Shown here: positions 1-58,301 of the stretch, one piece after another
How positions within the stretch are numbered: the stretch's first letter is position 1
Layout of the letters: each line of letters starts with the position of its first letter
Assembly (NCBI GenBank): GCA_035236585.1
Contig: CP141128.1
Span: 30,424,684-30,488,683 of the forward strand
Length of the DNA: 64,000 nt
Direction of reading: 5' to 3'
Origin: Warburgia ugandensis
Lineage: Eukaryota > Streptophyta > Magnoliopsida > Canellales > Canellaceae
Translations under genes and position numbers: made by a program
Notes under the pieces: model-generated
Database searches by the model: none
What the model was told of the DNA's origin: nothing
What the model saw: the letters and a program-made list of their open reading frames with translations, nothing else

Positions 1-2343
1 CTTGATTTTGATATAATCTAATTGATCAGCGCTTCAATTTTCATTTGATTTCGTAGATTTGATCATCAATTTTCATTAAATCATTTGATATTGTTGATCC
101 AACCACCAATTTCATTGACTCATCAAATGTTATTATTCCATCCGTTGATTTACATCAAAGCATCTTAGAACATTGATTACAATTAGGATTTCCACCATAT
201 CATCTTCCCTCATCGATCAAACAATTGATTTTCAACAAATCATTTGATCTCCACCATCCAGCTATCATATTTTTCTCAAATTATTGGATCTCATCAATCC
301 AATAATTTTTTTTCAAATTATCTGATAAGTCACAGTAATTAAATTGGTGGATATCGCCAATACAGCCATAAATTTCATTAAATTATCATATCTCACTTAT
401 CTGACTTTTGACATTTACCAAATCATTTGATTTTATTGATTTGATAGTCAATTTTCTTTGAACCGTTGAATCTCATTAATTCGACTATTGATTCTCAACA
501 AATCATTAGATCTTCTTGATTCGAATATTTCTTATCATCAAATCATTAGATCTCATGACCTTGAAAGTATGTTTAATCAAATCATTGAATCTCGTAGAAC
601 TGACCATCAATTTTAACCCAATCAATGGGTTTCATATTGAATGCTGATTTTCATCAAATCATCCAGATCTTGTTTGTCCAACCTTCGATCTTTATCTAAT
701 CATCAGGGCTCTTCAATTTAATGGTTTATTTTCATCAAACCACCATATCTTGTCAATCTGATCAATGATTTTTATCAAATCATTAGATCTCATTGTTCTA
801 AACATTGGTTTTGACCAGATGATCAAATCTCATCCATCCGACCATCAATTTTCATCAACTTTCAACAAATAATCAAATTTGGTTGGTCTAATCATTGATT
901 TTCATCAAATCATTGAAGCTCCTCTATGCAAACCTTGATTTTCATCAAATCACAAAATCTCATTGGTCCACCATACATTCTCATCCATTCATCTGATCAT
1001 GTAAATTAGACCATTGACTTTCTTCAAATCATTGGATCTCATCGATCTAACTATCAATTTCCATCAAATCATTTTATCTCGTCAACACAACCATCAATTT
1101 CCATTAGATCTTTGAATCTCATCAACTCATTGACCTTTGTAGATGTGAAGGTTGAATTTAAACAAATGATCGGAGATCATCGGTCCAATCATCATTTGCA
1201 ATGAATCTCGTAGATCTTACTACCAAATTTACTAAAATCATCAAAACTTGTCTATCCAACCCTTCATTTTCTTCAAATCAACGAATCTCATCGATCCCAA
1301 CTATGATTTTTGTATCATAGATTTGACCACCAATTTTCGTCATCTCACTACATCTCATCAATTTCACCATTGATTGTCCTTAAATCATTTGATCTCATTG
1401 ACTCGGATGTTGCTTTTGTCAAAACATCATATCTCATTGATTACACACAAATTTTTATCAAATCACCGGATCTCATTAGTTAGACCATTGATTTTCATAA
1501 AATCCGTAATATCATAGATTCGATTGTTGATCTTCATCTAATCTTTGCATCTCGTTAATCCAATCATTAGTTTCCACCAAAATCATGGATGTCATGATCT
1601 TGGTATTTATATTCACCAAATCATCATATCTCATTGATTTGACCATTGATTTTATGTAAATAAACATATTTCATTAATCCCACTATTCATTTTTGTCACA
1701 TCATTAGATCCCATCAACCTGACCACTAACTTTTATCCAAGCTCCTAGTCTTGTTGATTCAACTAATAATCTCTACGAATAATCAAATCCAATCGATTTG
1801 CCTTTTAAATTTTGCAAATTCCAGAATCCTATCATCCTTGACATCAATTCTAAGGAATAGAGGTGATGCCATCCTAAATTTAAAGAATTGAAGGTTTTCC
1901 TTTCAAAAATAAAAAAAATTGGACGTGCTCCTTGAAATTTATAGGATCAGCAATTTTCTTTTCTCAAATCAAATAAGAGTCGAGGTCATCTTCCATCAAA
2001 CCTCAAGAATCGAGTTGATCCTTTCTAAATTCTAAAAGAACGAAGCGATCTTTCATCGAATCACTGCATCTTGATGATTAAATCCACCAACCTCATCAAA
2101 TCACCAATTCTCTTCTATTCGACAATTGATTTTTTATCAAATCAGTGAATCTCATCAATGTAGCCATCAATATTCATCGAATCATCTAATTACCTTAGTT
2201 TCTAATAATCACTTCATCATATCTTTCCAAAAATGAATTTTCTTCAAATTATGGGAACTCATCAACTCAAAGGATGAAAATCATTAAATCAATGATTTCG
2301 TTGTCTTGATCATAGATTTTCATCCAAATAGAGGATGCCATTG
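1..2343 (+). repeat. HOR copy 1, with right end lost
   Basis: Begins exactly at the phase marker used to define the unit. It ends where the sequence jumps from the 'gaggatgccattg' segment straight to the segment normally found about 640 bp further on. Its length is therefore 2343 bp instead of about 2510 bp. Its second-monomer module lies at about 1800-2060. Confidence 0.8.
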
Positions 2344-4357
2344 GATCAACTATTGATTCTCATCAAATCATTGGATCTTGTTGATTAGAATATTTCTTAT
2401 AATCAAATCATTAGATCTCACCCCCTAGAAAGTTTATTTAATCAAATCATTGAATCTCGCAGGACCGACCATCAATTTTCATCCAATCAGTGGGTTTCAT
2501 ATTGGATGTTGATTTTCATCAAATCATCCAGATCATGTTGGTCCAACCTTTGTTTTTTATCTAATCATCAGATCTCTTCAATTTAATGGTTTATTTTCAT
2601 CAAATCACCATATCTTGTCAATCTGATCAATGATTTTTTATCAAATCATTGGATCTCATTGTTCCAAACATTGGTTTTTGTCAAATGATGAAATCTCATC
2701 CGTCCGACCATTAATTTTCATCAACTTTCAACAAATAATCAAATTTGGTGGATCAAATCATTGAAGCTCCTCTATGCAAACCTTGATTTTCATCAAAACA
2801 CAAAATCTCTTCGGTCGACCATATATTCTCACCCAGTCATCAGATCATGTAAATTAGACCATTGATTTTCTTCAAATCATTGGATTTCATCGATCTAACT
2901 ATTAATTTCCTTCAAGTAATTTTATCTCATCAATACAACCATCAATTTCCATTAGATCTTTGAATCTCATCACCTCATTGACTTTCGTAGACGTGAAGGC
3001 TGAATTTAAACAAATGATTGGAGATCATTGATCCAATCATATTTTCAATGAATCTCGTAGATCTAACTACCAAATTTACTGAAATCGTCAAAACTTGTCT
3101 ATCCAACTCCTCATTTTCTTCAAATCAACGGATCTCATCGATCCCAACTATGATTTTTGTATCCTAGATTTGACCACCAATTTTCATCACATCACTGCAT
3201 CTCATCAATTTCACCATTGATTGTCCTTAACTCATTTGATCTCGTTGACTCTGATGTTGCTTTTGTCAAAACATCATATCTCATTGATTGCATACAAATT
3301 TTCATCAAATCACCGGATCTCATTAGTTAGACCATTGATTTTCATAAAATCATTAATATCAATGATCCAATTGTTGATCTTTATCTAATCTTTACATCTC
3401 GTTAATCCGATCATTCATTTCCATCAAATCATGGATGTCATGATCTTACTATTTTTATTCACCAAATCATCATATCTCATTGATTTGACCATTGATTTTA
3501 TGTAAATCAACATATTTCATTAATCCCACTATTCATTTTTTGTCACATCATTAGATCCCATCAACCTGACCACTAACTTTTATCCAAGCTCCTAGTCTTG
3601 TCGATTCAACCAATAATCTCTACAAATAATCAAATCCCATTGATTTGCCATTTAAATTTTGCAAATTCCAGAATCCTATCATCCCTGACATCAATTCTAA
3701 GGAATAAAGGCGATGCCATCCTAAATTTAAAGAATTGAAGGTTTTCCTTTCAAAAATAAGAAAAAATGCATGTGCTCCTTGAAATTTATAGGATTAGCAA
3801 TATTCTTTTCTCAAATCAAATAAGATTTGAGGTCATCTTCCATCAAACCTCAAGAATTGAGTTGATCCTTTCTAAATTCTAAAAGAACGAAGAGATCTTT
3901 CATCGAATCACTGCATCTTGATGATTAAATCCACCAACCTCATCAAATCACCAATTCTCTTCTATCTGACAATTGATTTTTTATCAAGTTAATGAATCTC
4001 ATCGATCTAGCCATCAATTTTCATTGAATCATCGAATTACCTTAGTTTCTAAATAATCACTTCATCATCTCTTTACAAAAACTAATTTTCTTCAAATTAT
4101 GGGATCTCGTCAACTCAAAGGATGAAAATCTTTAAATCAATGATTTCGTTGTCTTGCTCATAGATTTTCATCCAAATAGAGGATGCCATTGATTTGGTAA
4201 TTAATTTTAATCAAAGCTCCTGATTTTGTTGATCAGATTGAATTTCCATCGGATCATTAGATCTCCAAGATCTGATCCTTGATATTAATTAGCTCATCAT
4301 ATTTTGTAAATCCAACCATCAATTTTATTCGAATCATTAGACGGCATGGGTGTAAAG
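2344..4357 (+). repeat. HOR copy 2, with left end lost
   Basis: Starts at about phase 480 of the unit because of the junction at 2343/2344 and runs to the next phase marker. Together with copy 1 it looks like the product of one unequal exchange or deletion of about 640 bp. The second-monomer module lies at about 3660-3915. Confidence 0.8.
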
Positions 4358-6867
4358 CTTGATTTTGATATAATCTAGTCAATCCGTGCTTCAATTTTCA
4401 TTGGATTGCGTACATTTGATCAATGATTTTTATTAAATCATTTGATATTGTTGATCCAACCACCGATTTTCATTGAATCATCAGATGTTATTATTCCATA
4501 CGTTGCTTTACACCAAATCATCTTAGAACATTGATTAGAATTAGGATTTTCATCATATCACCTTCTCTCATGGATCAAACAAATGATTTTCAACAAATCA
4601 ATTGATCTCCACCATCCATCAATCACATTTTTGTCAAATTACCGAATCTCATCAATCCTATAATTTTTACTTCAAATTATCTGATAAGTCACTATAATTA
4701 AATCGGTGGATATTGTCAATACCGCCATAAAGTTCATTAAATTATCGCATCCCACTTATCTAACCTTTCACTTTTACCAAAACATGTGATCTTATCGATG
4801 TGATAGTCAATTTTCTTTGAACCGTTGAATCTCATTAAATCGACTATTGATTCTCATCAAATCATTGGATCTTGTTGATTAGAATATTTCTTGTAATCAA
4901 ATCATTAGATCTCACCCCCCAAAAAGTTTATTTAATCAAATCATTGAATCTCACAGAACTGACCATCAATTTTCATCCAATCACCGGTTTAGTATTGTAC
5001 GTTGCTTTTCATCAAATCATCCAGATCTCGTTGGTCCAACCTTTGTTTTTTATCCAATCATCAGATCTCTTCCATTTAATGGTTTATTTTCATCAAATCA
5101 CTATATCTTGTCAATCTGATCAATGATTTTTATCAAATCATTGGATCTCATTGTTCCAAACATTGGTTTTGGTCAGATGATCAAATCTCATCCATCCGAC
5201 CATCAATTTTCATCAACTTTGAACAAATAATCAAATTTGGTTGATCTAATCATTGATTTTCATCAAATCATTGAAGCTCCTCTATGCAAACCTTGGTTTT
5301 CATCAAATCACAAAATCTCGTTGGTCGACCATACATTCTCATCCAGTCAATGAATCATGTAAATTAGACCATTGATTTTCTTCAAATCATTGGATCTCAT
5401 CGATCTAACTGTCAATTTTCATCAAATCATTTTATCTCGTCAATACAACCATCAATTTCCATTAGCTCTTTGAATCTCATCACCTCATTGACCCTCGTTG
5501 ACGTGAAGGCTGAATTTAAACAAATGATTGGAGATCATTGATCCAATCATCATTTTCAATGAATCTCGTAGATCTAACTGCCAAATTTTCTAAAATCATC
5601 AAAACTTGTCCATCCAACTCCTCATTTTCTTCAAATCAACGAATCTCATCGATCCCAACTACGATTTTTGTATCACAGATTTAACCACCAATTTTCGTCA
5701 TATCACTGCATCTCATCAATTTGACCATTGATTGTCCTTAAATCATTTCATCTCATTAACCCGAATGTTGGTTTTCTCAAAACATCAGATCTCATTCATT
5801 ACACATAAATATTTATCAAATTACCGGATCTCATTAGTTAGACCATTGATTTTCATAAAATCATTAATATCATTGATCCAATTGTTGATCTTTATCTAAT
5901 CTTTGCATCTAGTTAATCCAATCATTAGTTTCCATCAAATCATGGATGTCATGATCTTACTATTTATATACACCAAATCATCATATCTCATTGATTTGAC
6001 CATTGATTTTATGTAAATCAACAAATTTCATCAATCCCACTATTATTTTTTGTCACATCATTAGATCCCATCAACCTGACCATTAACTTTTATCTAAGCT
6101 CCTAGCCTTGTTGATTCAACCAATAATCATTACGAATAATAAAAAACCATTGATTTGCCATTTAAATTTTGCAAATTCCATAATCCTATCATCCCTGACA
6201 TCAATTCTAAGGCATAGAGGCTATGCCATCCTAAATTTAAAGAATTGAAGGTTTTCCATTCAAAAATAAGAAAAATTGGACGTGCTCCTTGAAATTTATA
6301 GGATCAGCAATTTTCTTTTCGCAAATCAAATAAGATTCGAGGTCATCTTCCATCAAACCTCAAGAATTGAGTTGATCCTTTCGAAATTCTAAAAGAACGA
6401 AGCTATCTTTCATTGAATCACTACATCTTGATGATTAAATCCACCAACCTTATCAAATCACCATTTCTCTTCTATCCGACAATTGTTTTTTTATCACGTC
6501 ATTCAATCTCATCGATCTAGCCATCAATATTCATCGAATCATCGAATTACCTTAGTTTCTAAATAATCACTTCATCATCTCTCTCCAATAATTAATTTTC
6601 TCCAAATTATGGGATCTCGTCAACTCAAAGGGTGAAAATCTTTAAATCAATGATTTTGTTGTCTTCCTCATAGATTTTCATCCAAACAGAGGATGCCATT
6701 GATTTGATAATTAATTTTAATCAAAGCTCCTAATCTTGTTGATCATATTGAATTTCCATCGAATTGTTGGATCTCCAAGATCTGATCTTTGATGTTAATT
6801 AGCTCATCATATTTCGTCAATCCAACCATCAATTCTATTCGAATCATTAGACCACATGGGTGTAAAG
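4358..6867 (+). repeat. HOR copy 3, complete 2510 bp unit
   Basis: A full unit between two phase markers. The segment at 4861-5126 is nearly identical to 9882-10147, two units downstream, and less like 7371-7640 in the unit between them. The second-monomer module lies at about 6170-6425. Confidence 0.88.
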
Positions 6868-9378
6868 CTTGATTTTGATATAATCTAGTCGATCCACACT
6901 TCAATTTTCATTGGATTTTGTAGAATTGATCATTGATTTTCATTAAATCATTTGATATTGTTGATCCAACCCCCAATTTTCATTGAATCATCAGATATTA
7001 TTATTCCATACATTGATTTACACCAAAGCATCTTTGAACATTGATTAGAATGAGGATTTTCATCATATCATCTTCTCTCATCGATCAAACAATTGATTTT
7101 CAACAAATCATTTGATCTCCACCATCCATCAATCATATTTTTGTCAAATTATCGGATGTCATTAATCCTATAATTTTTTCTCCAAATTATCTAATAAGTC
7201 ATTGTAATTAAATCGGTGGATATTGTTAATACACTAATAAATTTCATTAAATTATCGCATCCCATATATCTAACCTTTGAATTTTACCAAAACATGTGAT
7301 CTTATCGATTTGGTAGTCAATTTTCTTAGAACCGTTCAATCTCATTAAATCGACTATTAATTCTCATCAAATCATTAGATCTCCTTGATTAGCATATTTC
7401 TTATAATCAAATCATTAGATCTCACCCCCCAGAGAGTTTATTGAATCAAATCATTGAATCTCGCAGAACTGACCATCAATTTTCATCCAATCAGGGGGTT
7501 TCATATTGGATGTTGATTTTCATCAAATCATCCAGATCTTGTTGGTCCAACCTTTGTTTTTTATCCAATCATCGGATCTCTTCAATTTAATGGTTTATTT
7601 TCATCAAATCACCATATCTTGTCAATCTGATCAATGATTTTTATCAAATCATTGGATCTCTTTGTTCCAAACATTGGTTTTGGTCAGATGATCAAATCTC
7701 ATCCATCCGACCATCAATTTTCATCAAATTTCAACATATAATCAAATTTGATTGATCTAATCATTGATTTTCATCAAATCATTGAAGCTCCTCTATGCAA
7801 ACCTTGATTTTCATCAAATCACAAAATCTCGTTGGTCGACCATACATTCTCATCCCGTCAACGGATCATGTAAATTAGACCATTGATTTTCTTCAAATCA
7901 TTGGATCTCATCGATCTAACTGTCAATTTCCATCAAATCATTTTATCTCGTCAATACAACCATCAATTTCCATTAGATCTTTGAATCTCATCACCTCATT
8001 GACACTCATTGACGTGAAGGCTGAATTTAAACAAATGATTGGAGATCATTGATCCAATCATCATTTTCAATGAATCTCATAGATCTAACTGCCAAATTTT
8101 CTAAAATCGTCAAAACTTGTCAATCCAACTCCTCATTTTCTTCAAATCAACGAATCTCATCGATCCCAACTACGAATTTTGTATCATAGATTTGACCACC
8201 AATTTTCATCATATCACTGCATCTCATCAATTTGACCATTGATTGTCCTTAAATCATTTCATCTCGTTGACCCAGATGTTGCTTTAATCAAAACATTAGA
8301 TCTCATTGATTGCACACAAATTTTTATCAAATCACCAGATCTCATTAGTTAGACCATTGATTTTCATAAAATCATTAATATCATTGATCCAATTGTTGAT
8401 CTTTATCTAACCTTTGCATCTCGTTAATCCAATCATTAGTTTCCATCAAATCATGGATGTCAGGATCTTACTATTTATATTCACCAAATCATCATATCTC
8501 ATTGATTTGACCATTGGTTTTATGTAAATCAACATACTTCATTAATCCCACTATTCATTTTTGTGACATAATTAGATCCCATCAACCTGACCATTAACTT
8601 TTATCCAATCTCCTAGTCTTGTTGATTCAACCAATAATCTCTACAAATAATTAAATCCCATCAATTTGCCTTTTAAATTTTGCAAATTCCTGACTCCTAT
8701 CATCCCTGACATCAATTCTAAGGAATAGAGGCGATGCCATCCTAAATTTAAAGAATTGAAGGTTTTCCATTCAAAAATAAGAAAAATTGGACGTGCTCCT
8801 TGAAATTTATAGGATCAGCAATTTTCTTTTCTCAAATCAAATAAGATTCGATGTCATCTTCCATCAAACCTCCAGAATCGAGTTGATCATTTCTAAATTC
8901 TAAAAGAACGAAGCGATCTTTCATCGAATCACTACATCTTAATGATTAAATCCACCAACCTCATCAAATCACCAATTCTCTTCCATCTGACAATTGATTT
9001 TTTATCAGGTCATTGAATCTCATCGATCTAACGATCAATATTCATCAAGTCATCAAATTACCTTAGTTTCTAAATAATCACTTCATCATCTCTTTCCAAT
9101 AATTAATTTTCTTCAAATTATGGGATCTCGTCAACTCAAAGGATGAAAATCTTTAAATTAATGATTTCATTGTCTTGCTGATAGATTTTCATCCAAAGAG
9201 AGGATGCCATTGATTTGATAATTAATTTTAATCAAAGCTCCTCATCTTGTTGATTAAATTGAATTTCCATCGAATCATTGGATCTCCAAGATCTGATCTT
9301 TGATGTTAATTAGCTCATCATATTTCGTTAATCCAACCATCAATTTTATTCGAATCATTAGACGGCATGGGTGTAAAG
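6868..9378 (+). repeat. HOR copy 4, complete 2511 bp unit
   Basis: A full unit between two phase markers, very similar to its neighbours over most of its length. In some segments, for example around 7800-7870, it is closer to copy 3 than copy 5 is. In others, around 7380-7500, it is the odd one out. The second-monomer module lies at about 8680-8935. Confidence 0.88.
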
Positions 9379-11846
9379 CTTGATTTTGATATAATCTAGT
9401 CGATCCATGCTTCAATTTTCATTGGATTTCTTAGATTTGATCATTGATTTTCATTAAATCATTTGATATTGTTGATCCAACCACCGATTTTCATTGAATC
9501 ATCAGATGTTATTATTCCATTCGGTGATTTACACCAAAGCATCTTAGAACATTGATTAGAGTTAGGATTTTCATCATATCATCTTCTCTCATCGATTAAT
9601 CAATTTATTTTCAACAAATCATTTGATCTCCACCATCCATCAATCATATTTTTGTCAAATTATCGGATCTCATCAATCCTATAATTTTTTCTTCAAATTA
9701 TCTGATAAGTCACTGTAATTAAATTGGTGGATATTGTCAATACAGCCATAAATTTCATTAAATTATCATATCCCACATATCTAACCTTTGACTTTTACCA
9801 AAACATGTGATCTTATCGATTTGATAGTCAATTTTCTTTGAACCGTTGAATCTCATTAAATCGACTATTGATTCTCATCAAATCATTGGATCTTGTTGAT
9901 TAGAATATTTCTTGTAATCAAATCATTATATCTCACCCCCCAGAAAGTTTATTTAATCAAATCATTGAATCTCACAGAACTGACCATCAATTTTCATCCA
10001 ATCACCGGTTTAATATTGTATGTTGCTTTTCATCAAATCATCCAGATCTCGTTGGTCCAACCTTTGTTTTTTATCCAATCATCAGATCTCTTCAATTTAA
10101 TGGTTTATTTTCATCAAATCACCATATCTTGTCAATCTGATCAATGATTTTTATCAAATCATTGGATGTCATTGTTCCAAACATTGGTTTTGGTCAGATG
10201 ATCAAATCCAATCCATCCGAACATCAATTTTCTTGAACTTTCAACAAATAATCAAATTTGGTTTATTTAATCATTGATTTTCATCAAATCATTGAAGCTC
10301 CTCTATGCAAACCTTGATTTTCATCAAATCACAAAATGTCATTGGTCCACCATACACTCTCATCCAGTCAACGGATCATGTAAATTAGACCATTGATTTT
10401 CTTCAAATCATTGGATCTCATTGATCTAACTATCAATTTCCATCAAATCATTTTATCTCGTCAATACAACCATCAATTTCCATTATATCTTTGAATCTCA
10501 TCACCTCATTGACCTTTGTCGACGTGAGGGCTGAATTTAAACAAATGATTGGAGATCATTGATCCAATCATCATTTTCAATGAATCTCATGGATCTAACT
10601 ACCAAATTTACTCAAATCGTCAAAACTTGTCTATGGAACTCCTCATTTTCTTCAAATCAATGAATCTCATCGATCCCAACAATGATTTTGTATCATAGAT
10701 TTGACCCCCAATTTTCATCTCATCACTGGATCTCATCAATTTGACCATTGATTGTCCTTAAATCATTTGATCTCGTTGACCCAGATGTTGCTTTAATCAA
10801 AACATCAGATCGCATTGATTACACACAAATTTTTATCAAATCACCGGATCTCATTAGTAAGACCATTGATTTTCATAAAATCATTAATATCATTGATCCA
10901 ATTGTTGATCTTTATCTAACCTTTGCATCTCATTAATCCAATCATTAGTTTCCATCAAATCATGGATGTCATGATCTTACTATTTATATTCACCAAATCA
11001 TCATATCTCATTGATTTGACCATTGATTTTATGTAAATCAACATACTTCATTAATCCCTCTATTCATTTTTGTCACATCATTAGATCCCATCAACCTGAC
11101 CACTAACTTTTATCCAATCTCCTAGTCTTGTTGATTCAACCAATAATCTCTACGAATAATCAAATCCCATTGATTTGCCTTTTAAAATTTGTAAATTCTA
11201 GAATCCTATCATCCCTTACATCAATTCTAAGGAATAGAGGCGATGCCATCCTAAATTTAAAGAATTGAAGGTTTTCCTTTCAAAAATAAGAAAAATTGGA
11301 CATGCACATTGAAATTTATAGGATCAGCAATTTTCTTTTCTCAAATCAAATAAGATTCGATGTCATCTTCCATCAAACCTCAAGAATCGAGTTGATCATT
11401 TCTAAATTCTAAAAGAACGAAGTGATCTTTAATCGAATCATTGGATCTTGTTAATTAAATCATCCAACCTCATCAAATCACCAAATCTCATCCATCTCAC
11501 AATTGATTTTTTATCAAGTCATTGAACCTCATCGATGTCGCAATCAATATTCATTAAATCATCAAATTACCTTAGTTTCTAAATAATCACTTCATCATCT
11601 CCTTCGAAAAATTAATTTTCTTCAAATTATGGGATCTCGTCAACTCAAAGTATGAAAATCAATGATCTCGTTGTCTTGCTCATAGATTTTCATCCAAATA
11701 GGGGATGTCGTGGATTTGATAATTAATTTGATAATTAATTTAAATCAAATCTTTTGATCTTGTTAAACAGATTGAATTTCCATTGAATCATTGGATCTCT
11801 AGGATCTGATCTTTGATGTTAATTAGCTCATCATATTTCGTCATTC
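9379..11846 (+). repeat. HOR copy 5, nearly complete
   Basis: Runs from the phase marker to about phase 2466. There the text 'agctcatcatatttcgtc' is followed by a segment that normally lies about 990 bp earlier. The second-monomer module lies at about 11190-11440. Confidence 0.82.
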
Positions 11847-12858: not shown

Positions 12859-13669
12859 CTTGTTTTTGATATAATCTAGTCGATCTGCGCTTCAATTTTC
12901 TTTGCATTTCATAGATTTGATCATCAATTATCATTAAATCATTTGATATTGTTGATCCAACCAACGATTTTCATTGAATCATCAGATGTTATTAATCCAT
13001 CCATTGATTTACACGAAAGCATCTTAGAACATTGATTAGAATTAGGATTTTCATCATATCATCTTCTCTCATGGATCAAACAATTGATTTTTAACAAATC
13101 ATTTGATCTCCACTTTCCATCTATCATATTTTTGTCAAATTATCAATCTCATCAATCCTATATATATTTTTTCAAATTATCTAATAAATCACTGTAATCA
13201 AATCAGTGGATATCATCAATAGAACCATAAATTTCATTAAATTATTAGATCTCACTTATCTGATCTTTGACTTTTACCAAATCATTTGAACTTATCGATT
13301 TGATAATCAATTTTCTTTGAACCATTGAATCTCATTAAATCGACTATTGATTCTCATCAAATCATTGGATCTTGTTGATTTGAATATTTCTTATCATCAA
13401 ATTATTAGATCTCATCGCCCAGAAAGTTTATTTAATCAAATCATTGAATCTCGCATAACTTACCATCAATTTTAATCCAATTAGTGGGTTTCATATTGAA
13501 TGCTAATTTTCATGAAATCATCTAGATCTTGTTGGTCCAACCTTTGATCTCTTCAATTTAGTGGTTTATTTTCATCAAATCACCATATCTTGTCAATTTG
13601 ATCATTGATTTTTGTCAAATCATTAGATCTCATTGATCTAAACATTGGTTTTGATCAGATGATCAAATC
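12859..13669 (+). repeat. HOR copy split by LTR1
   Basis: Starts at a slightly altered phase marker and proceeds to phase 811, where LTR1 is inserted. The unit continues at 16817 without loss, apart from the duplicated AAATC. Confidence 0.85.
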
Positions 13670-21000: not shown

Positions 21001-21069
21001 TTGGATCTTATTGATCCCACCATTGATTTTGGTTAGATGATCAAGTCTCATCCATCCTACCATGAATTA

Positions 21070-33268: not shown

Positions 33269-33290
33269 GTATAAGGTCTTGATGATGATG

Positions 33291-46696: not shown

Positions 46697-49600
46697 TAGA
46701 TCAATAATATCAAATTATTTTATGAATGTCAAAGGTTAGATAAGTGAGATACGATGATTTGATGAAATTTGTCATTGGATTAATGATATTGAGTGATTTA
46801 ATTACAATGAAATTATCAAATAATTTGAAAAAAAATTATAAGATTAATGAGATTTGATAATTTAACAAAAATGATAGATGGTTGATATCAAATGATTTGT
46901 TGAAAATCACTAGTTGGATCGATGAGATAAGATTGTAGGATGAAATCATAGTTCTAATCAATGTCATAAGATACTTTGATCTAAATCAACATACATATTA
47001 ACAAGATATGACAATTCAATGAAAATTCGTTGTTGGATCAATGTATATGATGATTGGATGAAAATTGATAATCAGATAGATGAAATTCAATGAAAATTAA
47101 AGGACAAATCAATTAGAACAAATCGAAAGCAATTGTTAGATCAACAAGATCTAATGACTCGACAAAAATTGATGAAATTCTATGAGTTGATGAAAATCAA
47201 AGGTAAGATCAAGGAGATACAATGATTCAATGGAATTTGTCAATGTGATTAATAAGATTGGATGATTAGATTAAAATTATATGAAAATCTAAGAGTAGAA
47301 CAACAAGATCATTAATTTAATGATTTCCATCCATTGAATTAACGAGATCTCATAATTTGAAGAAAATTATTTTTTTAAAAGTATGTGATAAAGTGATGTT
47401 TTGAAAACCAACGTAATTGATAATTTGATGAATATTAATGATTAGATCAACAAGATTCGATGACTTGATAAAAATCAATGTTCAGATCGAAGGGATTTAG
47501 TGAATTGACAAGGTTAGATTAAGAAAATGCAATGATTTGATAAATGATATGTTTGTTCTTTTAGATTTGAGAAAGTATCAAGTTGATCTTGGGTTTTGAC
47601 AAAAGATAACCTCAAGTATTATCTTATTTGATAAAGGAAAATCTCTAATCCTAGAATTTTGAAGAAAGATTGCATCTAAGTTTTCTTATTTGAGAAAGGA
47701 TCACCTTTGATTCCTTGAATTGGATGAAGAGTCACCTCTAATCCTTATAATTGATTTTATGGCCTATAGAATTCTTGAATTTGAAGAAAATTGAAGGTGG
47801 ATCAATGAGATTTGATGACTAATAGAGATCATTAATTGAATTAATGAGATTAGACACTTTGATAAAAATTAGTGGTCAAGTTAACAAGATCCAATGATGT
47901 TACAAAAATGAATGGTTGGATCAATGAGATATAGTGATTTAGTTTAAATCAATGTTCGGATCAACAAGATCTAATGATTTGTTGAATAAAAATAGTAAGT
48001 CAATTATATCCATTAATTTGATGAAACCTAATGATTGGATCATGAGGTCCAATGGTTAGATAAAGATCAACAATTAGATCAATGATATTATGAAAATTAA
48101 TGGTCAAACTAATGAGATCTAATGATTTGATGAAAATTTTGGTCCGATCAATGAGATCTAATGATTTGATAAAAAGTAAATATCGGATTCATGAGATCCA
48201 GCAATTTAATGACTATCAATGGTCAAATTGACATGGTCTAGTGATGTCATAAAAATTGATGGTCCAATCTGTGAGAAAAAATCAAAGTTTGGATCAATGG
48301 GATCTGCTAATTTGATGTAAATAAAGAGTTGGATAGATGAGTTTTGATGATTTTGTTAAAATTGGTAGTTATATCTACAAGATTCAATGGAAATGATGAC
48401 TAGATTGATGAGCTACAACCATTTGTTTAAATTTAACCTTCGCATCTATGAGGATAAATGAGCTTATGTGATTCGAAGATTTAATGGAAATTAATGGCTG
48501 TATTGATAAGTTAAAATGATTCCATGGAAATTGGCAACTAGATCGATGAGATCCAATGATTTTCATGAAAATCAATGGTTGAATGAACAGGATTTGATGG
48601 CTCAATGAGAATGTATGGTGGAGCGATGAGACCTAGCGATTTGATGAAAATCAAGGTTTGAAAAGACGAGATTCAATAATCTGATGAAAATCAACAATCG
48701 AATTTGTCTAATCCATTGATTTGATTATAATCGATTGTTAGGTCAATGAGATCCAATGATTTGATTTAATTTGATTATCAAATAGATAAGATCTTATGTT
48801 TTGAATAAATTCAACTATGCGATCAAACAAATTCGATGATATGATGAAAATCAATGTTCTGTTAAACAAACTTCTATGATTTGATTAAAATCAGAAGTGG
48901 GATCATTGAGACTAGATGATTTAATATAAATTGATGGTCAGATTGACATATCTCATGATTGAATAAAAATCAAGGATCGGATCTATGAGATCTAAGAATT
49001 TGATGAAAGTCAATAGTTAGTAATGAGATTTGATAATTGGATAAATCAATGATTGAATTAACGAGACCTAATAATTTGATAAAAAAAATTATGGGTGAAA
49101 TTATTAAGATTTGATAAAAAACCAGCAGCTGGATCAAAGAGAGTTCATGAAAATGTGTGGGTAGATCAATAAGAATTAGCAACTTAATGAAAATCAAGCA
49201 TTGGATTCTCGAGACAGAATGATTTAATGAAAATCAACAAAAAGGATTCTTTAGGGCTAATGATTCAATAAAAATTAACTATTAGGTAATTGAAATACCA
49301 TGATTTGATGAATAGAAAATATGGCATTGATGAGATCTGATGATTGGATGAAATTCGAGGGTAGGACTAGTTAGATTTGATCATTTGACAAAATCCAAGG
49401 GTTGATCGACAAGAACAAAGATTTATGAAAATGAATTGTTGGTTCAACAAGGTATGATGATACAAGAAAATTGACTTTTGGGTTGAGGAGATCCTAAATT
49501 TTGATTAAAACCAAGTTTTGAATTGAAAGATTTGATGATTTGTTGTTAATGAATAGTTTGATCGACGAGATTTGATGATATAATGGAAATTGACGATTGG

Positions 49601-50449
49601 ATCAATAATATCCAATGAGTTATAATTTGTAAAAACCAATGGACATATCAATGAGATTCAATGATTTCATGAAAACAAAGTTTTAGATCAACAAGATCCT
49701 ATATTTTTTAGGAAAATTAATTATCGAATCGATAAGATATGATAATCATTGAAAATTAATGGTTGGACAGATGAGGCTTGAACAAATGAAAAAAATTGAT
49801 GGTTGGATCAATGAGTTCCAATTCTTTGATGAAAATCATTAGTTAGATTGACAAGATCTAGTGAAAGTCAATCATTTAATTGATGGGATCTAATGATTTG
49901 ATAAAATAAGGGTTGGACCGACAATATTTGGATGATTTGACGAAAATCAGCATTTTGTCTGAGACCCACTGATTGGATAAAAATTGATGGCCAGTTCAAT
50001 GTGATCCAATGATTTGATTAAATATACTTTCAGAGCAGTGAGATCCAATGATTTGACAATAAAAAATATTCATATCAATGATAACCAATAATTTGATAAA
50101 AATCAATAGTCGAATTAATGAGATTCAATGAAAATTAACTATCAGATCAATAAGATCAAATGATTTGATGAAAGTCAAAGGTCAAATAAGTGAGATTCGA
50201 CAATTAGATAAAATTTATGATTGGATTGTTAATATCCAGTGATTTAGTTATAATGAAAAATCAGATATTTTTAAATTTTTTTTTATAGGATTGACTAGAT
50301 CATACAATTTCACAAATTGATAGATAGATGAACAAGATCAGATGATTTTTAGAAAATCACTCATAGGATTGATGAGATAAGATCATACAATGAAAATTAT
50401 AATGCAGAACATTGTTATATGATGTTTTGACGTGAATCAATAGACTAAT
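46697..50449 (-). repeat. Satellite block 5, inverted orientation
   Basis: Minus-orientation satellite with a second-monomer module at about 47545-47800 and a weak phase marker near 47115. The longer-unit segment is present, including a 'ttgaataaattcaac' stretch near 48803 that matches 18946, 21910 and 35782 in reverse complement. It ends at the start of the TRIM-like array. No gene is visible. Confidence 0.9.
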
Positions 50450-50796
50450 TGTGATGACTAGGGATCCCATAGTAATGATATTATCCGCTTTGGGTCCCTC
50501 ACCCCTTTCGATTTAAATTTTTCTTTTTAGGAAAAGGCTTATTACTTGGAGATACCACTTTAACCCTTATAAATGGCCTAACATTCCCTACCTACGCGAT
50601 AGGGGACTAACTCTCAAGGTCACCCCTACACAACCATCCTATAGATTGTCACCCCTATACTAAGCCACCCACTAGGACTAGCAACCCAAAGACCCCTCTT
50701 CCCCCTTAAGGAACATGCATCCTTGCATGCTGCCACGATCTAGAGCCGACATGTGGCTAGCCCACCATCATAAGGGAAACTGGCTCTAATACAAAG

Positions 50797-51582
50797 TGTG
50801 ACGGCTAGGAGTTTCACAGTAACGATATTGTCTACCTTTCAGGCTTCACCCTCACAGTTTTGTTTTTCCTTTTTAGGAAAAGGACTCGTTACTTGGAGAT
50901 ACCACACAAACCCTTATAACTTTCCTCGCTTCCCCTCCCTAGGTGATGTGGGTCTAACTCTCAAGGTCACCCCCACACAGCCATACTGTAGCTCACCACT
51001 CCTTTATCATACCGCCCACCAGGATCAGCAAGCCAGAGCCCCCTCTTCCCCATTTAAAGAACATGCGTCCCATACCAGTTTTATTTTTCCTTTTTAGGAA
51101 AAAGCCTTGTTACATGGAGGTATTACTCGAACCCTTATAACTTTCCTAGCTTCCCCTCCCTAGGTGATGTGGGTCTAACTCTCAAGGTCACCCCCACACA
51201 GCCATACTGTAGCTCACCACTCCTTTATCATACCGCCCACCACGATCAGCAAGCCAGAGCCCCCTCTTCCCCACTCAAAGAACATGCGTCCCATACCAGT
51301 TTTATTTTTCCTTTTTAGGAAAAAACCTTGTTACATGGAGGTGTTACTCGAACCCTTATAACTGGCATAGCTTCCCTCCTTAAGCGATGTGGGACTAACT
51401 CTCATGGTAACCCTTGCACAGCCATCATGTAGCTTGAAGCCCTTTATCGAGCCACCTACAAGGACCAGCAAACCAGAGTCCCCTCTTCCCCACATAAGGA
51501 ACATGAGTCACCGCGTGTTTTCAAGGCTTAGCATGCATACATCTAGCCCACTATCACGAGGGGAACTGGCTCTGATACCAAC
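50797..51582 (-). repeat. Near-identical 221 bp tandem duplication
   Basis: Within the second TRIM-like unit, a segment ending 'catgcgtcccataccag' occurs twice, with CCCATACC at 51069 and 51290, exactly 221 bp apart. The preceding 130 bp (50921-51055 versus 51141-51276) differ at very few positions. The other units of the cluster differ much more, so this duplication is recent. Confidence 0.85.
51568..51580 (-). promoter_or_regulatory. Primer-binding site for initiator tRNA-Met
   Basis: The minus strand reads TGGTATCAGAGCC two bases after the end of an LTR that finishes ...CACA. This is the standard plant LTR-retroelement site complementary to the 3' end of initiator tRNA-Met. Degenerate copies occur near 50781, 51928, 52561 and, on the plus strand, 52770. 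Confidence 0.85.
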
Positions 51583-52573
51583 TGTGACAATGGAGGGTCC
51601 CACAGTAATGATATTGTCTACTTTGGGTCCCTCATCTCTTCAGGGCTTCACCCTCACATCTTGTTTTTCCATTTTAGGAAAAGGCCTTGTTACTTTGAGA
51701 TACCACCCGAACCCTTATAACTGGCCCAACTTCCTCTCTCTAGGTGATGTGGGATTAACTCTTAGGGTCACCCCCGCATAGCCATCTTGTAGCTCACCAC
51801 CCCTTTACCGAGCCGCCACTAGGACTAGCAAGCCAAAGCCCCCTCTTCCCCCTTTAGGGAACATGATTCTCTAGTGTTGACATGACTTGGCAGCGGCGTG
51901 CAGCTAGCCCAGCATCATGAGGGAAACTAACTCTGATACCAACTATGATGACCAGGGCTCCCGCAGTAACGTTATTATTCACTTTTGGTCCCTCACTCCT
52001 TCTAGACTTCACCCTCATGATTTTGTTTTTCGTTTTTAGGAAAAGGTCTCGTTACTTGGAGATATCACCCACACCCTTATAACTAGCCTTGCTTCCCTTC
52101 CCCAGATAATGTCTGGCCCACTCTCAGGGTAATCGTGGTAGAGCCATCCTATAGCTCACCACCCCTTTACTGGGTCACCCATTAGGACTAGCAAGCTAGA
52201 GCCCCCTGTTCACTATAATGACTAGGAGTCCCATAGTAATGATATTGTTGGCTTTGGATCCCTCACCCTTCTGGCCTTTACCCTCATGGTTTTGTTTTTC
52301 CTTTTTAGGAAAAGGACTCATTACTTAGAGATACCCCCCGAACCTTTATAACTGGCCCAACTTCCCCTCCCCAGGCAATGTGGGACTAACTCTCAGGATC
52401 ACTCTCGCACAACCATCTTGTAGCTCGCAACCACTTTACTGGGTTGCCCACCAGGATTGGGAAGCCAGAGCCCCTCTTCCCCCCTTAGGGAATACATGTC
52501 CCCATGTGTTGCCATGACCTGATGCCTGTGTGTGGCTAGCTCACCATCATGGGGGGAATTGGCTCTAATACCA

Positions 52574-53131
52574 TCTGTGGCCCTGAGAATTCATTACACA
52601 TCTCTTGAGGAGGGAAAGTTGGGCCAGTTATAAGGGTTTGAATGGTATCTCCAAGTAACGAGGCCTTTTCATAGAAAGGAAAAAACAAAACCATGAAGGT
52701 GAAGCTTGGAAGGGCTAAGGGACTCAAACAAGACAATACCGATACTGTGGGACCCCCAATCATAACAATTAATATCAGAGTCAGTTCCCCTCATGATGGT
52801 GGGCTAGCCGCACATGGGCGTCAAGTCGTGGCAACACGTGAAGATGTGTATTCCCTAAGAGGATAAGAGGGGGCTCTGGCTTGCCTGTCCTAATGGGTAG
52901 ACCGGTAAAGGGTGGTGAGCTATAGGATGGGTGTGCCAAGATGACCCTGAGAGTTAGTCCCACATAGCCTGAGGAGGGGAAGTTGGTCTAGTTATAAGGG
53001 TTTGGGTGATATCTCCAAGTAATGAGGCCTTTTCCTAAAATGGAAAAACAAAACTATGAAGGTGAAGCCTAGAAGGGGTGAGGGACCTAAAACAGATAAT
53101 ATCATCACTATTGGACCCCTGATTATTAAAT
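52574..53131 (+). mobile_element. Inverted TRIM-like copy with two LTRs
   Basis: The best two-LTR unit in the cluster. The first LTR is about 52574-52767, ending with 'gtgggacccccaatcataaca'. A degenerate primer-binding site (AATATCAGAG) is near 52770. An internal region of about 160 bp follows. The second LTR runs from about 52935 to 53131, starting near 'gaccctgagagttagtccc'. Total length is about 560 bp. The strand is opposite to the units at 50450-52573. No protein is encoded. Confidence 0.72.
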
Positions 53132-56100
53132 TGATTGATAAGATCTGATCATTCAATGAGAATTTGTGGATGGATCTACAATATCCAATTATTCAATGAA
53201 AATTGATGAAGTACAATTAAAATTAAAGGGTAGATTAGCTAGATCAAATCAAAATCAATTATTAGATCAATGAGATTTGATGATTTTATCAAAATTGATG
53301 GTTGAATTGATGAGTTGATAAGAATTCGAGTTTAGATCAAGGAGATCTGCTTATTCAAGGAAAATTTATAGTCTTATCAAAAGATTGGATGATTTGATTA
53401 AAATTAATTGTCAAATCAATGAGATCTGCTAATTTCATAAAAATCTAATAGCATATCAACAAGATCCATGATTTAGTGATTTTCATCTGTCTAATTGACG
53501 AGATTCCATAATCTGAAGAAAATTAATTTTTCAAAGGACTTGATAAAGTGATGTTTTGAAAACCAACTTGATTCAATAATTTGATTGATATTGAGGTTTA
53601 GATTGATGAGATTGGATGACTTAATAAAAATCAGTAGTCAATTTGATGAGATTGGGTGATTTGATAAAGATGGAGGATTAGATCAACAAGATCAAATTAT
53701 TTGATAAAAGATCACTTTGTTTTTTTAGATTTGAGAAAGGATCAAATCGCTTCTTGGGGTTTGATAAAAGATCACTACCAATCTTATCTAATTTGAGAAA
53801 GAAAAATCTATAAACCTAGAAATTTAAAAAAAGAATACATCCAAATTTTCTTATTTGAGAAAGGGTCACCTTTAATTCTTTGAATTTGATGAAGACTCAC
53901 TTCCAATCCTTACAATTTTATTTGAAGGATGGAAGGATTCTAGAATTTACAAAAATTTGAAAGGAATGTTGATGAGATTTGACAACTTGTAGAGATCATT
54001 GGTTGAATCAATGAGATATATGATCTAATAAAAATTAGTGGTCAGGTTGATGAGATCCATGATGTGACAAAAATGAAGGGTTGGATCAATGTTATATTGA
54101 GATTTACTTAAAATCAATAGTCGGATCAACTAGATCTGATGATTTGTTGAATATACGTAGTAAGATCAGTGGCATCCAATTATTTGATGAAAATTAATGA
54201 TTGGATTAATGAGATCCAAAGATTAGGCAAAGATCAACAATAGGATAAAAAATATCAATGATATTATGAAAATCAATGGTCGAGCTAATGAGATATGATG
54301 ATTTGATGAAAATTAGGGTAAGATAATGGAGATCTAATGAATTTAATAAAAAGTAATGATTGAATTGATGAGATCTAGTGATTTAATGACAACTAATGGT
54401 TGGATTGCCGATATTAGTGATATGATGAAAATTGATGGTCAAGTTTATGAGACAACAATCAAAGTTGAGATCAATGAGATCCATTGATTTGATGAAAATG
54501 AAGGGTTGGATTGATGATTTTGGTGATTTTGTTAAAATAGGCAGTTAGATCTAGGAGATTAAATGGAAATAATGATTGCATTGATGAGCTCTAATAATTT
54601 GTTTAAATTCAACATTCGCATTTATGGCCACTAATGAGGTTTATAGATTTAATGGAAATTGATGGTTGTATTTACGAGATAAAACAATTTGACAAAAATT
54701 GACATTTAGATCGACGAGATCTAATGATTTGATTAAAATCAGTGGCTGGATCAACAAGATCTAATCACTTGATGAGAATGTATTGTGGGCCAATGAGATC
54801 GAGTGATTTGATGAAAATCAAGGTTCAGATAGATGAGATTTGATGAAAATCAATTATTGGATAAATGAGATTTGATAAAAATCAATTATTGGATCAATGA
54901 GATTTAATAATTTGTTGAAAGTTGATGGATAAATGGACAAGATCCAATGATATGATAAAAATTGAAAATTAGATTTATGTGATCCATTTATTTGACCAAA
55001 ATCAATTGTCAAGCCAATAGTTTCGATGATTTGATGTAAATTGATTTGATGACATGATGAAAATCAATGGTCACATACACAAACTCCTATGATTTGATTA
55101 AAATTAGTAGTGCAATGATTGAGACTAGATGATTTGATGTAAATTGATGGCCAAATTGATATATCTGATGATTCGATGAAAATCAAGGATAGGATCAATG
55201 AGATCCAATGATTTGATGAAAGTCAACAGTTAGTTATGAGATTCAATGATTAGATGAAAGTCAATAGTTAGTTATGTGATTCAATGATTAGATGAAAGCA
55301 ACGATCAAATCAATGAGATCTAATAATTTGATGATAATTGAAGCTAAAATTATAAAGAGTTGGGGAAAACTAACAATTAGATCTAAGAGATTAATGAAAA
55401 TGTATGGGCAAATCAATGAGAATTAGTGATTTAATGAAATCAAGCAATGGATTGTCGTGATGCAATGATTTGATAAAAATCAGAAAAAAGATTATTCTAA
55501 TACAATTATTTAATGAAAATCAACTATTAGATTATTGAAATTCTATGATTTGATTAATAGGAAATGTGGGAATTGATGAGATCCATTGATTTGATGAAAA
55601 TCAAGGGTTGCACTAATTACATTTGTTCATTTCACAAAAATTAAGGAACGATAAACGAGATTTAAAGATTTTATGAAAATCAATGGTCAGATTGACTAGG
55701 TCTGTTTATATAGGAAAATTGACTATTGGATTGAGGAGATCAAGGGTTGCACTAATTAGATTTGTTCATTTCACAAAAATCAAGGAACGATAAATGAGAT
55801 TTAAAGATTTTATGAAAATCAATGGTCCGATCGACGAGGTCTGTTGATATAGGAAAATTGACTATTGGATTGAGGAGATCCTATCTTTTGATTAAAACTA
55901 AGTTTGAATTGACTAAATTTTATGAGCTTATGAAAATGAATAGTTTGATTGGCGAGATCTAATGATATAATGAAAATTGACAATCCAATCAATGATATTG
56001 AATGATCATAATTCGAAAAAAATCTATGGGTGGATCATTGACGTCAAATGATTTCATGAAAATTTATCTTTAGATCAACGAGATTTGATATTTTTTATGG

Positions 56101-56851
56101 AATTCAATCATCAAATCGATGAGATATGATAATTTGATGGAAATTGAAAGTCAAATTGATGAGACTAGATCATTAAAACAAAGCTAGGGTTGGATCAATG
56201 AGATCTAATGATGTGATGAAAAATCATTTGTTAGATTGATGCGATTTGGTTATTTGATGAATGTTGACCATTTAATTGATGAGATCTGATGAGTTGATAA
56301 ATATTAAGGGTTGGACCGATGAAGTGATGAAAATCAACAGTCAGTATAAGACGCACTAATTGGATAAAAATTGATGGTTAGTTCAAAGAGATCCAATGAT
56401 TTGATTAAATTTACTTTTCAAAGCGGTGAGATCCAATGATTTACTAATAAGAAATATTTAAAACTACAAGATCCAATGATTTATTTAAAGTCAAATGTTA
56501 GATAAGTGAGATTCGATGATTTGATGAAATTTACAACTTGACTGACTATATCCATTGATTTAATTACAATGAATTATCAAATAATTTGACAAAAATTGAT
56601 AGATAGATGGATGAGACCAGATGAATTTGATGTAAATCATTGGTTGGATTGATGAGATATGATGAAAATCATAATTCAGATCAATGTTATAAGATGCTTT
56701 GATGCAAATTAACACATTGATACAGAAGATCTGATGATTCAATGAAAATTGGTGGTTGGATCGACAATATTCAATTATCTGATCAAAATTGATAATCAAA
56801 TTGATGAAATCCAATGAAAATTGAAGGGTGGATCAAGTAGATCAAATCAAA
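53132..56851 (-). repeat. Satellite block 6, inverted orientation
   Basis: Minus-orientation satellite with a second-monomer module at about 53720-53985 and a weak phase marker near 53245. The next phase marker, near 56840, gives a unit of about 3.6 kb with no insertion. A local duplication of about 140 bp is visible: 'gggttgcactaatta' at 55604 and 55743, each followed by the same 'aaggaacgataaa' segment. No gene is visible. Confidence 0.9.
55604..55880 (-). repeat. Local tandem duplication of about 140 bp in satellite
   Basis: Two almost identical adjacent copies begin with 'gggttgcactaatta' at 55604 and 55743 and continue through 'ttgactattggattgaggag'. The spacing of 139 bp is about three and a half monomers. 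This shows recent unequal exchange below the HOR scale. Confidence 0.8.
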
Positions 56852-57239
56852 TATTCTAACACTCTCGGCATATTGTTTACTTTGGACGAAGCCTCATGGT
56901 TTTGTTCTTCCTTGTAGGGAAAATGTGCACTTCCTATGATTAGAGTCCACAATAGAGTATATTGTCCTCTTTGGGTCCTATGCCCTAATGGGGGGCTTAC
57001 TTGGGATGACACCTGGCCCCTCAAGGCCTTGTTTTCTTCAGAATGTGATGAGCTTCCCATAAACATCCCTTAGAACACATACACACTGAGAAGGATACCC
57101 AAGTCTTATAATTAGCCTGGTTCCCTCTCCCCAAGCAATGTGGAACTAACTCTTAGTAACACCTCCATCTACATACCTCCAACTACGTGCCTCAAACACC
57201 AATCTTAAGATACTAACCTTAAGGCTCCCTCAACCACTC
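56852..57239 (-). mobile_element. TRIM-related fragment
   Basis: Non-satellite insertion of about 390 bp between 'agatcaaatcaaa' and 'ttgttagatcaacaag', which are contiguous in other satellite copies (e.g. near 47120). It contains 'ctttgggtcctat' and 'caatgtggaactaactctta'-type segments matching the TRIM-like LTRs at 50450-53131, but is more diverged and rearranged. No coding capacity was recognised. The open frame at 56842-57066 is incidental. Confidence 0.65.
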
Positions 57240-58301
57240 AATTGTTAGATCAACAAGATTGGATGATTAGACAAAAAATGATGGTTCAATTGATGAAATT
57301 TGATGAATTGATGAAAATCAAAGGTTAGATCAAGGTGATCCAATGATTTGATGGAAATTGACAACCTAATTGATATGATCGGATGATTCGATTAAAATTA
57401 AAGCTTAAATAAATGAAATCTACTAATTGAATGAAAATCTAAAGAAAAACAACAAGATCAATGATTTAATGATTTTCATTCGTTGAATTGATAGATCCTA
57501 TCATTTGGAAATTTTTAGTTTTTTGAAGGACGCGATAAAGTAATGTTTTAAAAACAAACATGATTTGATGAATATTAATGGTTAGATTGATGAGATTTGA
57601 TGACTTGATTAAAATCAATTGCTGGATGGACAAGATAAGGTGATTTGATGAAGATCGAGGGTTAGATCAACCAAATTTAATGATTTGATGAAAGATCTCT
57701 TTGTTCCTTTAGATTCAAGAAAGGATCAACTTAATTTTTGGGATTTGATAGAAGATTACCTCTGATCTTATTGATTTGAGAAAGAAAAATCTCAAGTTGT
57801 AGAAATTTGAAGAAAGACTAGGTCCAATTTTTCTTATTTGATAAAGGATCACCTTTGATTCTTTGAATTTGTGGAAGAGTCACCTCCAATCGATAGAATT
57901 GATTTTAGGGTCAATAGTATTCTAGAATTTACAAAAATTGAAAGGCAGATTGATGAGATTTGCTGATTTGCAGAGATCATTGGTTGAATCAAAGATATTG
58001 GAAGATTTGATAAAAATAAAAATAGTGGTCAAGTTGACAAGATCCAATGATTCAATGAAAACTAATGCTTAGAATGAAGAGATTTAAAGGTTAGCTAAAG
58101 ATTAATAATCTGATCAACAATATCAATGATAGTACGAAAATCAATGGTCAAACTAATAAGATCTGATGATTTCATGTAACTTATGTTGTGATCAATGTGA
58201 TCTAATGATTTGATAAAAAGTAAAGACTGGATCTATGAGATCCTAATATTTAATGACTATTAATGGTTAGATTGAATAGATCTACTGACATGATAAAAAT
58301 T
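57240..58301 (-). repeat. Satellite block 7, inverted orientation
   Basis: Last satellite block in the window, minus orientation, with a second-monomer module at about 57700-57950. It ends at the broken 3' side of the gypsy remnant. Satellite is not seen again before position 64000, so the array edge may be here or the array may continue beyond the gypsy copy. Confidence 0.88.

Follow-up and report, generated by a model that had tools for sequence, protein, structure and literature searches.

In this study, we characterized the satellite that occupies much of a 64,000-bp window of the Warburgia ugandensis genome (contig CP141128.1 of assembly GCA_035236585.1, here C3:30,424,684-30,488,683; the assembly spans 1.1225 Gb in 14 contigs of 54.9-106.1 Mb). 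The satellite is built from diverged 40-bp monomers and a second, shorter-period module, ordered into a kilobase-scale higher-order repeat (HOR). We find that the 2.51-kb HOR on the left of the window and the 3.4-3.6-kb HOR on the right are one unit, of which the left form is a deletion derivative, and that the young left array forms a small local patch of about nine module-bearing copies rather than the margin of a large homogenised core. The evidence makes it likely that the family is an old, non-coding, low-abundance plant satellite and mostly a relic, in which a ~3.5-kb HOR multiplied and spread early, homogenisation stopped, and the copies decayed as silent, CG/CHG-methylated sequence, with one local re-expansion.

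The 40-bp monomer proposed by the first-pass annotation of this window is borne out by self-identity, by a monomer model and by comparison with shuffled sequence. Self-identity at a lag of 40 reached 0.434 in positions 1-14,000, against a median of 0.292 (standard deviation 0.010), and 40 likewise ranked first among short lags in 18,000-26,500, 34,000-38,000, 38,000-42,500, 47,000-50,500 and 53,500-58,300. In the same scan the signal was weak in 42,500-47,500, which is mainly insertion, and absent from 26,500-34,000 and 58,300-64,000. A two-strand cyclic Viterbi model gave 34.1 kb to the monomer, on the forward strand to 35,978 and on the reverse strand over 39,304-58,302, with a single stray 36-bp call within an insertion. 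It delineated 951 whole and partial monomers, of one family and arranged head-to-tail; the 730 near-complete ones have a mean identity of 71.7% to the consensus, and 461 of them are exactly 40 bp long. A 22-base monomer marker, at up to two mismatches, matched the window 86 times and 100 dinucleotide shuffles not once. Since self-identity is also raised at lags 18 and 22, the 40-mer has an 18 + 22 internal repeat.

The second repeat is a module of ~201 bp with a period of 30-31 bp. A separate 31-bp module had been expected at about 250 bp; the module itself is real, with consensus self-identities of 0.46, 0.49 and 0.50 at lags 31, 62 and 93 (maxima in 500 shuffles, 0.37, 0.40 and 0.40), and it is the length that has to be revised. 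In the six left copies lag 30 outscores lag 31. Aligned to the 40-mer with possible descent in mind, the module scored 58, where random sequence gave 43.5 (standard deviation 11.5, maximum 84). The Viterbi model, together with module self-identity, places 13 copies in the window. Nine are on the forward strand, at 1,850-2,050, 3,697-3,897, 6,207-6,407, 8,718-8,918, 11,227-11,427, 12,180-12,398 (rearranged, as the HOR alignment also indicates), 17,833-18,035, 22,891-23,094 and 33,463-33,665, and four on the reverse strand, at 40,348-40,548, 47,545-47,778, 53,710-53,968 and 57,694-57,896.

Both HOR lengths that had been read from the window were recovered. On the left, self-identity was 0.455 at lag 2,511 and 0.463 at lag 5,021; blastn aligned 2,339-9,328 to 4,833-11,841 at 92.5% identity, and modules are spaced by 2,510, 2,511 and 2,509 bp, and by 2,507 bp after subtracting an insert, with two units shortened to 1,847 and 953 bp. 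On the right, spacings without insertions are 3,373, 3,500 and 3,600 bp, within or close to the ~3.3-3.6 kb first estimated. Mid-window spacings are 2,825 bp (minus an insert) and 5,058 bp (two units, one without a module). The first-pass annotation gave these two lengths for a satellite placed at 1-58,301. The satellite amounts to ~37.2 kb of that interval, the remainder being insertions, and alignment of every base to a 3,509-bp reference copy from the right side reveals the same order in copies of both strands and of both arrays. Left copies consist of reference 1-1,536, a short piece resembling 669-713, and then 2,597-3,509, and are without ~1.06 kb of the reference HOR. Some older copies (window 19,085-19,147 and 54,868-54,934, and sampled stretch L018) have a piece like it ahead of 2,597-2,627; this short piece therefore probably belongs to the HOR unit and is missing from the reference alone. 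The ~1.06-kb deletion is common to copies spanning 853-16,885 and thus predates the left amplification.

A ~3.5-kb HOR comprises ~83 diverged monomers ((3,509 bp less the module)/40) and one module, and across the two forms a unit holds ~58-83 monomers plus the module. Monomers at the same position in different HORs are closer than monomers inside a HOR: in 36 of 36 copy pairs, same-position monomers were 0.738-0.930 alike, against 0.580-0.613 for different positions, and within a HOR monomers are 58-62% alike, neighbours no closer than distant ones. Same-position identity is 92-93% among left copies L2-L4, 76-79% among older copies and 74-79% between left and older copies. The HOR alignment thus upholds the description of a complex HOR in which many short monomers are combined with another repeat type at a constant phase. 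Of 44 junctions listed, 5 were without phase and 39 were scored; the 40-bp phase was kept within 2 bp at 20 of these, a result we did not use because shared junctions are recounted and the aligner favours phase.

Age, spread and mutation spectrum

The copies in the window fall into two age classes. Leaving out pairs that share fewer than 300 columns, mean identity was 0.904 among left copies (21 pairs), 0.777 among the older M and R copies (33 pairs) and 0.768 between the two groups (62 pairs). These means indicate star-like relations apart from the left copies. Young copies differ by 7-13% and old copies by 20-25%, with private indels and insertions. In a tree of 15 HOR copies, L2-L4 are innermost, followed outward by L1, L0, L5, L6, M1a and M1b; supports for this left nesting are 0.89-1.00, except 0.026 for the L3-L4 pair, and splits among the R copies, M2 and M3 are weakly supported (0.07-0.85). 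The left array is youngest at its centre and flanked by older copies, L0 at its left end and L5-L6 with M1 on the right. Beyond the window's left edge the 2.51-kb form runs ~3.5 kb further and ends at an inversion, followed by HOR copies in the opposite orientation (stretch L042), which makes the young array a local island. When the best 40 candidates were scored in each DNA search (out of 326, 147 and 445), nine of 40 module matches were at 84-100%, all at C3:30,421,531-30,442,730 (~21 kb), and the other 31 were at or below 79%. Among the matches scored, recent amplification is found at the window locus only.

Across the genome, the 22-base marker occurs at 118 sites exactly and at 2,041 with up to two mismatches (reversed control, 0). 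Scaling from 86 sites in 37.2 kb to 2,041 sites puts the family at ~0.88 Mb, or ~0.08% of the assembly. Blocks lie on C1 (75.3 Mb), C2 (20.1 and 30.97-31.2 Mb), C3 (23.6, 28.07-28.30, 29.87-30.57 and 31.3-31.5 Mb), C6 (80.9-81.0 of 84.2 Mb), C10 (35.87-36.13 Mb), C11 (28.1, 35.5-35.8 and 52.0-52.2 Mb), C12 (38.1 and 43.4 Mb) and C13 (16.8 Mb), with several each on C2, C3 and C11 and up to 24 Mb between blocks of one chromosome; single marker sites occur elsewhere on C1, C2, C5, C10 and C12. The exact marker has no site on C4, C7, C8 or C9, and none on C14 among the 115 of 118 exact sites listed. Marker matches occurred in just one of 20 samples of 10 kb taken along C3, that at 30.0 Mb. Confinement to a single locus, which the first-pass annotation named as evidence that would count against it, does not hold: the family is multi-locus. 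Along C3:29.88-30.57 Mb the marker strand alternates -, +, -, +, -, which points to repeated inversions.

HOR identity between chromosomes (0.780, 47 pairs) equals that within C3 (0.780, 36 pairs). This comparison used HOR pieces from C1, C2, C6, C10, C11 and three other places on C3 together with six window copies; 83 of 105 pairs were kept, and the 22 with fewer than 250 shared columns, including all C5 pairs, were dropped. Equal divergence within and between chromosomes suggests one ancient spread, then decay. The segment that the young form lacks is matched at 72-81% on C2, C3, C6, C10, C11, C12 and C13 (best 40 of 445), so the long HOR is widespread.

The mutation spectrum of these copies is uneven. 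In L0-L6, C>T or G>A changes occur in 49 of 78 CG columns, 35 of 61 CHG columns and 94 of 623 CHH columns, an excess over CHH with p values of 1.7e-18 for CG and 1.4e-12 for CHG; transversions are alike across contexts (11/78, 14/61 and 103/623). The excess is confined to C..G distances of 1 and 2 and is not raised at 3 or more: rates in L1-L4 for distance 1, distance 2 and longer distances are 36/82, 16/56 and 49/626, and the old copies give 71/80 and 52/59 versus 403/867. Mutual information between monomer columns peaks at adjacent pairs alternating TG and CA, as expected when CG decays on either strand. CHG methylation is typical of plants, and CCG is a weaker target. Within the CHG columns of L0-L6, CAG and CTG are changed in 16 of 25 each and CCG in 3 of 11, so that in the mutation spectrum the C>T excess at CG and CHG comes with CCG below CAG and CTG (11 CCG columns). 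We read this spectrum as the likely scar of plant-type methylation, consistent with lasting CG and CHG methylation in the germline.

Origin and role

We considered several functions for the satellite. A protein-coding role was rejected, since the monomer length of 40 is not divisible by three and the satellite contains none of the window's 12 stop-to-stop frames of at least 100 aa. A structural RNA was rejected as well, as the window gave neither an Rfam match at gathering scores nor a tRNA. The consensus 40-mer contains a 7-bp inverted repeat (TTAGATC and GATCTAA around TCATT), yet 140 of 5,000 shuffles matched it, and of 14 copy-by-repeat pairing tests one gave a p of 0.032 and 13 were above 0.1, which does not support a maintained hairpin. 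A test for 10-bp A/T phasing found a peak at neither 10 nor 20. No 100-bp bin stands out as a conserved island (M/R bins 0.72-0.83, module included), and the module, with bins of 0.78-0.79, is conserved no better than the remainder of the HOR, which argues against a protein-binding role for it. The lack of a conserved bin, hairpin, RNA family or coding frame favours a passive relic; most likely the satellite has no sequence-specific function, and its effect is that of passive heterochromatin.

In our model, a single early episode of recombination-based amplification, with unequal exchange or re-insertion of circular DNA as candidate routes, multiplied the 3.5-kb block and spread it. Homogenisation would then have ceased, and since that time the blocks would have lain as silent, CG/CHG-methylated heterochromatin, gathering retroelements and inversions; at the window locus, a derivative without ~1.06 kb was re-amplified. 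Several points weigh against this account. We infer both the amplification mechanism and its single early episode. Fitting HOR alignments to a profile raises identities (by plain blastn, old copies are 70-76% identical), and the within/between comparison used short loci, five other chromosomes and one young copy (L3). The abundance is extrapolated from one 22-base marker and the density of one window, assuming an uncollapsed assembly, and with the best 40 candidates scored another young sub-array could have been missed. As for methylation, the reverse-order control, G..C, is no more than roughly flat (0.05-0.15 in L1-L4, 0.10-0.23 in L0-L6), pooled transition/transversion ratios are low (1.05-1.30), and the satellite's observed/expected CpG ratios of 0.67 and 0.53 show a depletion no stronger than in neighbouring elements (0.66 and 0.42).

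The first-pass annotation had suggested that this could be the major centromeric or pericentromeric satellite of the genome, in which case the left 2.51-kb array might be its young core. Centromeric satellites often show HOR architecture, AT-richness, transposable-element insertions and changes of orientation; the C3 blocks also lie within a stretch of lower GC content (0.33-0.35 at 21-37 Mb among the 20 samples, the satellite sample excluded; 0.36-0.40 at 1-17 Mb and 0.34-0.38 at 41-65 Mb). However, long homogenised arrays and a large genome share were not found: in the assembly as given, the family makes up ~0.9 Mb in scattered interstitial blocks, including three separate positions on C11 and one near the end of C6, its exact marker is absent from four chromosomes, and its copies are ~78% alike except in the ~21-kb sub-array (best 40 candidates per search), which itself stops at an inversion ~3.5 kb left of the window. 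The methylation scar points the same way. In the parts of the source available, Arabidopsis CENH3 regions are described as CG-methylated and relatively CHG-depleted, and the flanking low-recombination zones as methylated in all contexts (PMC10804481). The strong CHG-type deamination seen here would therefore favour ordinary, silent heterochromatin, by analogy with that one species. We regard a (peri)centromeric role for the family as improbable, although some blocks may be pericentromeric. It is unlikely that the family was once centromeric, lost that role and survives as a fossil, its scattered blocks marking ancient or shifted centromeres: spread over many chromosomes, HOR structure, equal between-chromosome divergence and the absence of current homogenisation in the compared copies would all suit such a past, but nothing links the blocks to old centromere positions, and one chromosome holds several of them. 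Rather unlikely, too, is a broader version in which a once chromosome-wide, perhaps centromeric, kilobase HOR satellite was abandoned everywhere at about the same time, leaving a fossil layer and one locus where a deletion derivative is newly expanding.

A birth of the 40-mer array inside a transposable element, which then dispersed it, also has a small chance of being correct. Satellite origin from tandem repeats of retrotransposons is described as frequent in plants in the available parts of one source (PMC7004042), and retroelement pieces are interleaved in the array; against this, the 13,670-16,816 element is flanked inside a HOR by a duplication of its own and therefore arrived later, and no coding remnant, as a frame of at least 100 aa, was seen in the satellite. 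Lastly, we give next to no credence to the HOR being an assembly artefact of duplicated or mis-joined reads. Nothing speaks for it beyond the general risk for repeats, whereas the copies differ by 7-13% (young) or 20-25% (old) and carry private indels and insertions, and other contigs repeat the same HOR order. An early spread followed by silent decay and one local re-expansion is the account we prefer.

Map of the window and contig ends

In the HOR alignment, the array runs on the forward strand to 35,968 and on the reverse strand over 39,304-58,302, interrupted by retroelement insertions. The young sub-array at 1-13,670 (+) comprises L0-L5 and the start of L6, with L1 and L5 internally shortened, as delimited by identity among left copies, HOR alignment and spacings. 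L6 is split at 13,670-16,816 by a 3.1-kb solo-long terminal repeat (LTR)-like element, + as read, with TG...CA ends and a 5-bp duplication, AAATC, in flanks judged by eye. The rest of L6 and the older copies M1a, M1b (module lost) and M2 follow at 16,817-25,540 (+), assigned by HOR alignment and by identity among older copies. At 25,541-33,287 (+) lies a remnant resembling a long interspersed nuclear element, with reverse-transcriptase-like pieces on the forward strand (RVT_1, E 0.0095, 16.1 bits, under the cut-off of 29.6); nested in it at 25,609-30,053 is a 4.4-kb solo-LTR-like element with GATTT flanks, a duplication identified by eye. Copy M3 at 33,288-35,968 (+) ends the forward array, and the orientation switch point, placed by HOR alignment and flanks at 35,969-39,303, holds an LTR-like fragment beginning TGTGACACCCC at 35,979.

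Beyond the switch, the HOR alignment places older copies on the reverse strand: R0 and part of R1 at 39,304-42,873, the rest of R1 and part of R2 at 46,698-50,461, the rest of R2 and R3 at 53,127-56,851, and the end of R3 with a partial R4 at 57,236-58,302, where the Viterbi model also sets the satellite's right edge in the window. Sequence comparison characterized two of the intervening insertions, an LTR-like fragment at 42,874-46,697 (67% over 573 bp to 35,969-39,303) and a 2.7-kb insertion at 50,462-53,126 composed of several mutually similar blocks, some direct and some inverted, which includes a 221-bp tandem repeat of three copies with 88% matches; a short insertion in R3 occupies 56,852-57,235 (HOR alignment). 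A 139-bp tandem duplication with 95% matches at 55,600-55,880, inside an old HOR whose surrounding material is ~78% identical, is a recent small expansion. Outside the satellite, at 59,584-62,252, a 2.7-kb solo-LTR-like element with ATTTC flanks (by eye) is nested in a broken Ty3-type element and is related to the element at 13,670-16,816 (76% over 270 bp). A Pfam family was found for 6 of 10 fragments, with Ty3-type retroelement domains that include Tf2-1-like SH3, H2C2 integrase and RVP_2. Together with the CHG mutation signature and the long solo-LTR-like elements with 5-bp duplications, these domains are in keeping with a plant genome.

The contig ends carry repeats of another kind. Degenerate 7-mer arrays occur at 8 of 14 sampled 300-base ends, with CCACAGA at contig starts (stretches L036, L039, L040 and L041) and TCTGTGG at contig ends (L043, L045, L046 and L048), mixed with CCCTAA/TTAGGG and GGTTCAG(T)GG variants; CCCTAAA is in none of the 14. 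Their strand polarity is telomere-like, and they are either a degenerate telomere of an unusual type or TTTAGGG repeats altered by base-calling error. Nothing relevant to such a telomere motif was found among the open-access papers listed. Four other ends (L037, L044, L047 and L049) have AT-rich TTTTAATTTAATT-type simple repeats, as judged by eye.

Relation to known satellites

Exact searches of IMG/VR with a 30-base monomer pattern and of GTDB with a 22-base pattern gave no matches, and literal monomer words gave none in open-access literature text. The comparisons that follow rest on the portions of the published sources that were available. The first-pass annotation judged such HORs uncommon in plants, and at kilobase scale this agrees with published plant HORs of 38-40-bp monomers, which measure 159-332 bp; we found no plant kilobase HOR built from short monomers in the open-access literature, such HORs being documented in mammals (cattle Y, human DYZ1). 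A 2013 survey left out monomers below 50 bp (PMC4053949), and satellites of this type may therefore be under-reported. The long-monomer satellites of Vicia faba have no internal subrepeats save irregular ones in VfSat8. A search of the open-access literature for precedents of reading satellite methylation from mutation spectra gave one match, which was unrelated.

The satellite provides a readable record of tiered build-up (18 + 22 bp, 40 bp, 3.5 kb, 2.51 kb), spread, halted homogenisation and decay. Because its copies diverge equally within and between chromosomes, the common assumption that concerted evolution is ongoing can be put to the test. Its CG/CHG spectrum suggests that sequence alone can disclose the past germline methylation of a satellite, a reading that could help to tell silent arrays from CENH3-type ones in genomes that come without epigenomic data.

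Among plants, the likenesses are by description only. Carrot CentDc also orders ~40-bp monomers into a HOR, typically four monomers of 39-40 bp in 159 bp (PMC8259371), but it is a dominant centromeric repeat, whereas the unit here has ~58-83 monomers plus a module and is of low abundance. CficCl-61-40 of Chenopodium shares a short, ~40-bp monomer, stepwise HOR formation and non-concerted evolution, yet with derived units up to 332 bp its HOR is about ten times shorter (PMC6429384). In subfamily VG-V of Vicia grandiflora VicTR-B, a 38-bp monomer forms a 186-bp pentamer HOR, and as in our satellite HOR copies are closer than their monomers (89% versus 78%), with circular DNA in HOR multiples (PMC2543021); here the HOR is kilobase-sized and its decay older.

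In HOR length the mammalian systems come closer. The cattle Y centromere combines a 73-bp monomer with a near-equal HOR of 3.7 kb and has more diverged copies outside, but its 364 copies are 95-98% alike and CENP-A enriched (PMC11436988). Human DYZ1/HSat3 likewise arose from a simple unit that diverged and was then amplified as a ~3.6-kb block, although from a 5-bp (pentamer) ancestor and into a multi-megabase Y array (PMC4022460). The opposed arms of the window recall the macro-dyads of Tribolium, in which adjoining sub-arrays are oppositely oriented across tens of kilobases (PMC13081366), and strand alternation across the 0.7 Mb at C3:29.88-30.57 Mb is coarsely like those arrays; here, however, the arms are old (~71-76% by blastn) and an LTR-like fragment fills the switch. 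Altogether, this is a satellite of known kind, and the CG/CHG C>T scar in its young copies is the element that is new here.

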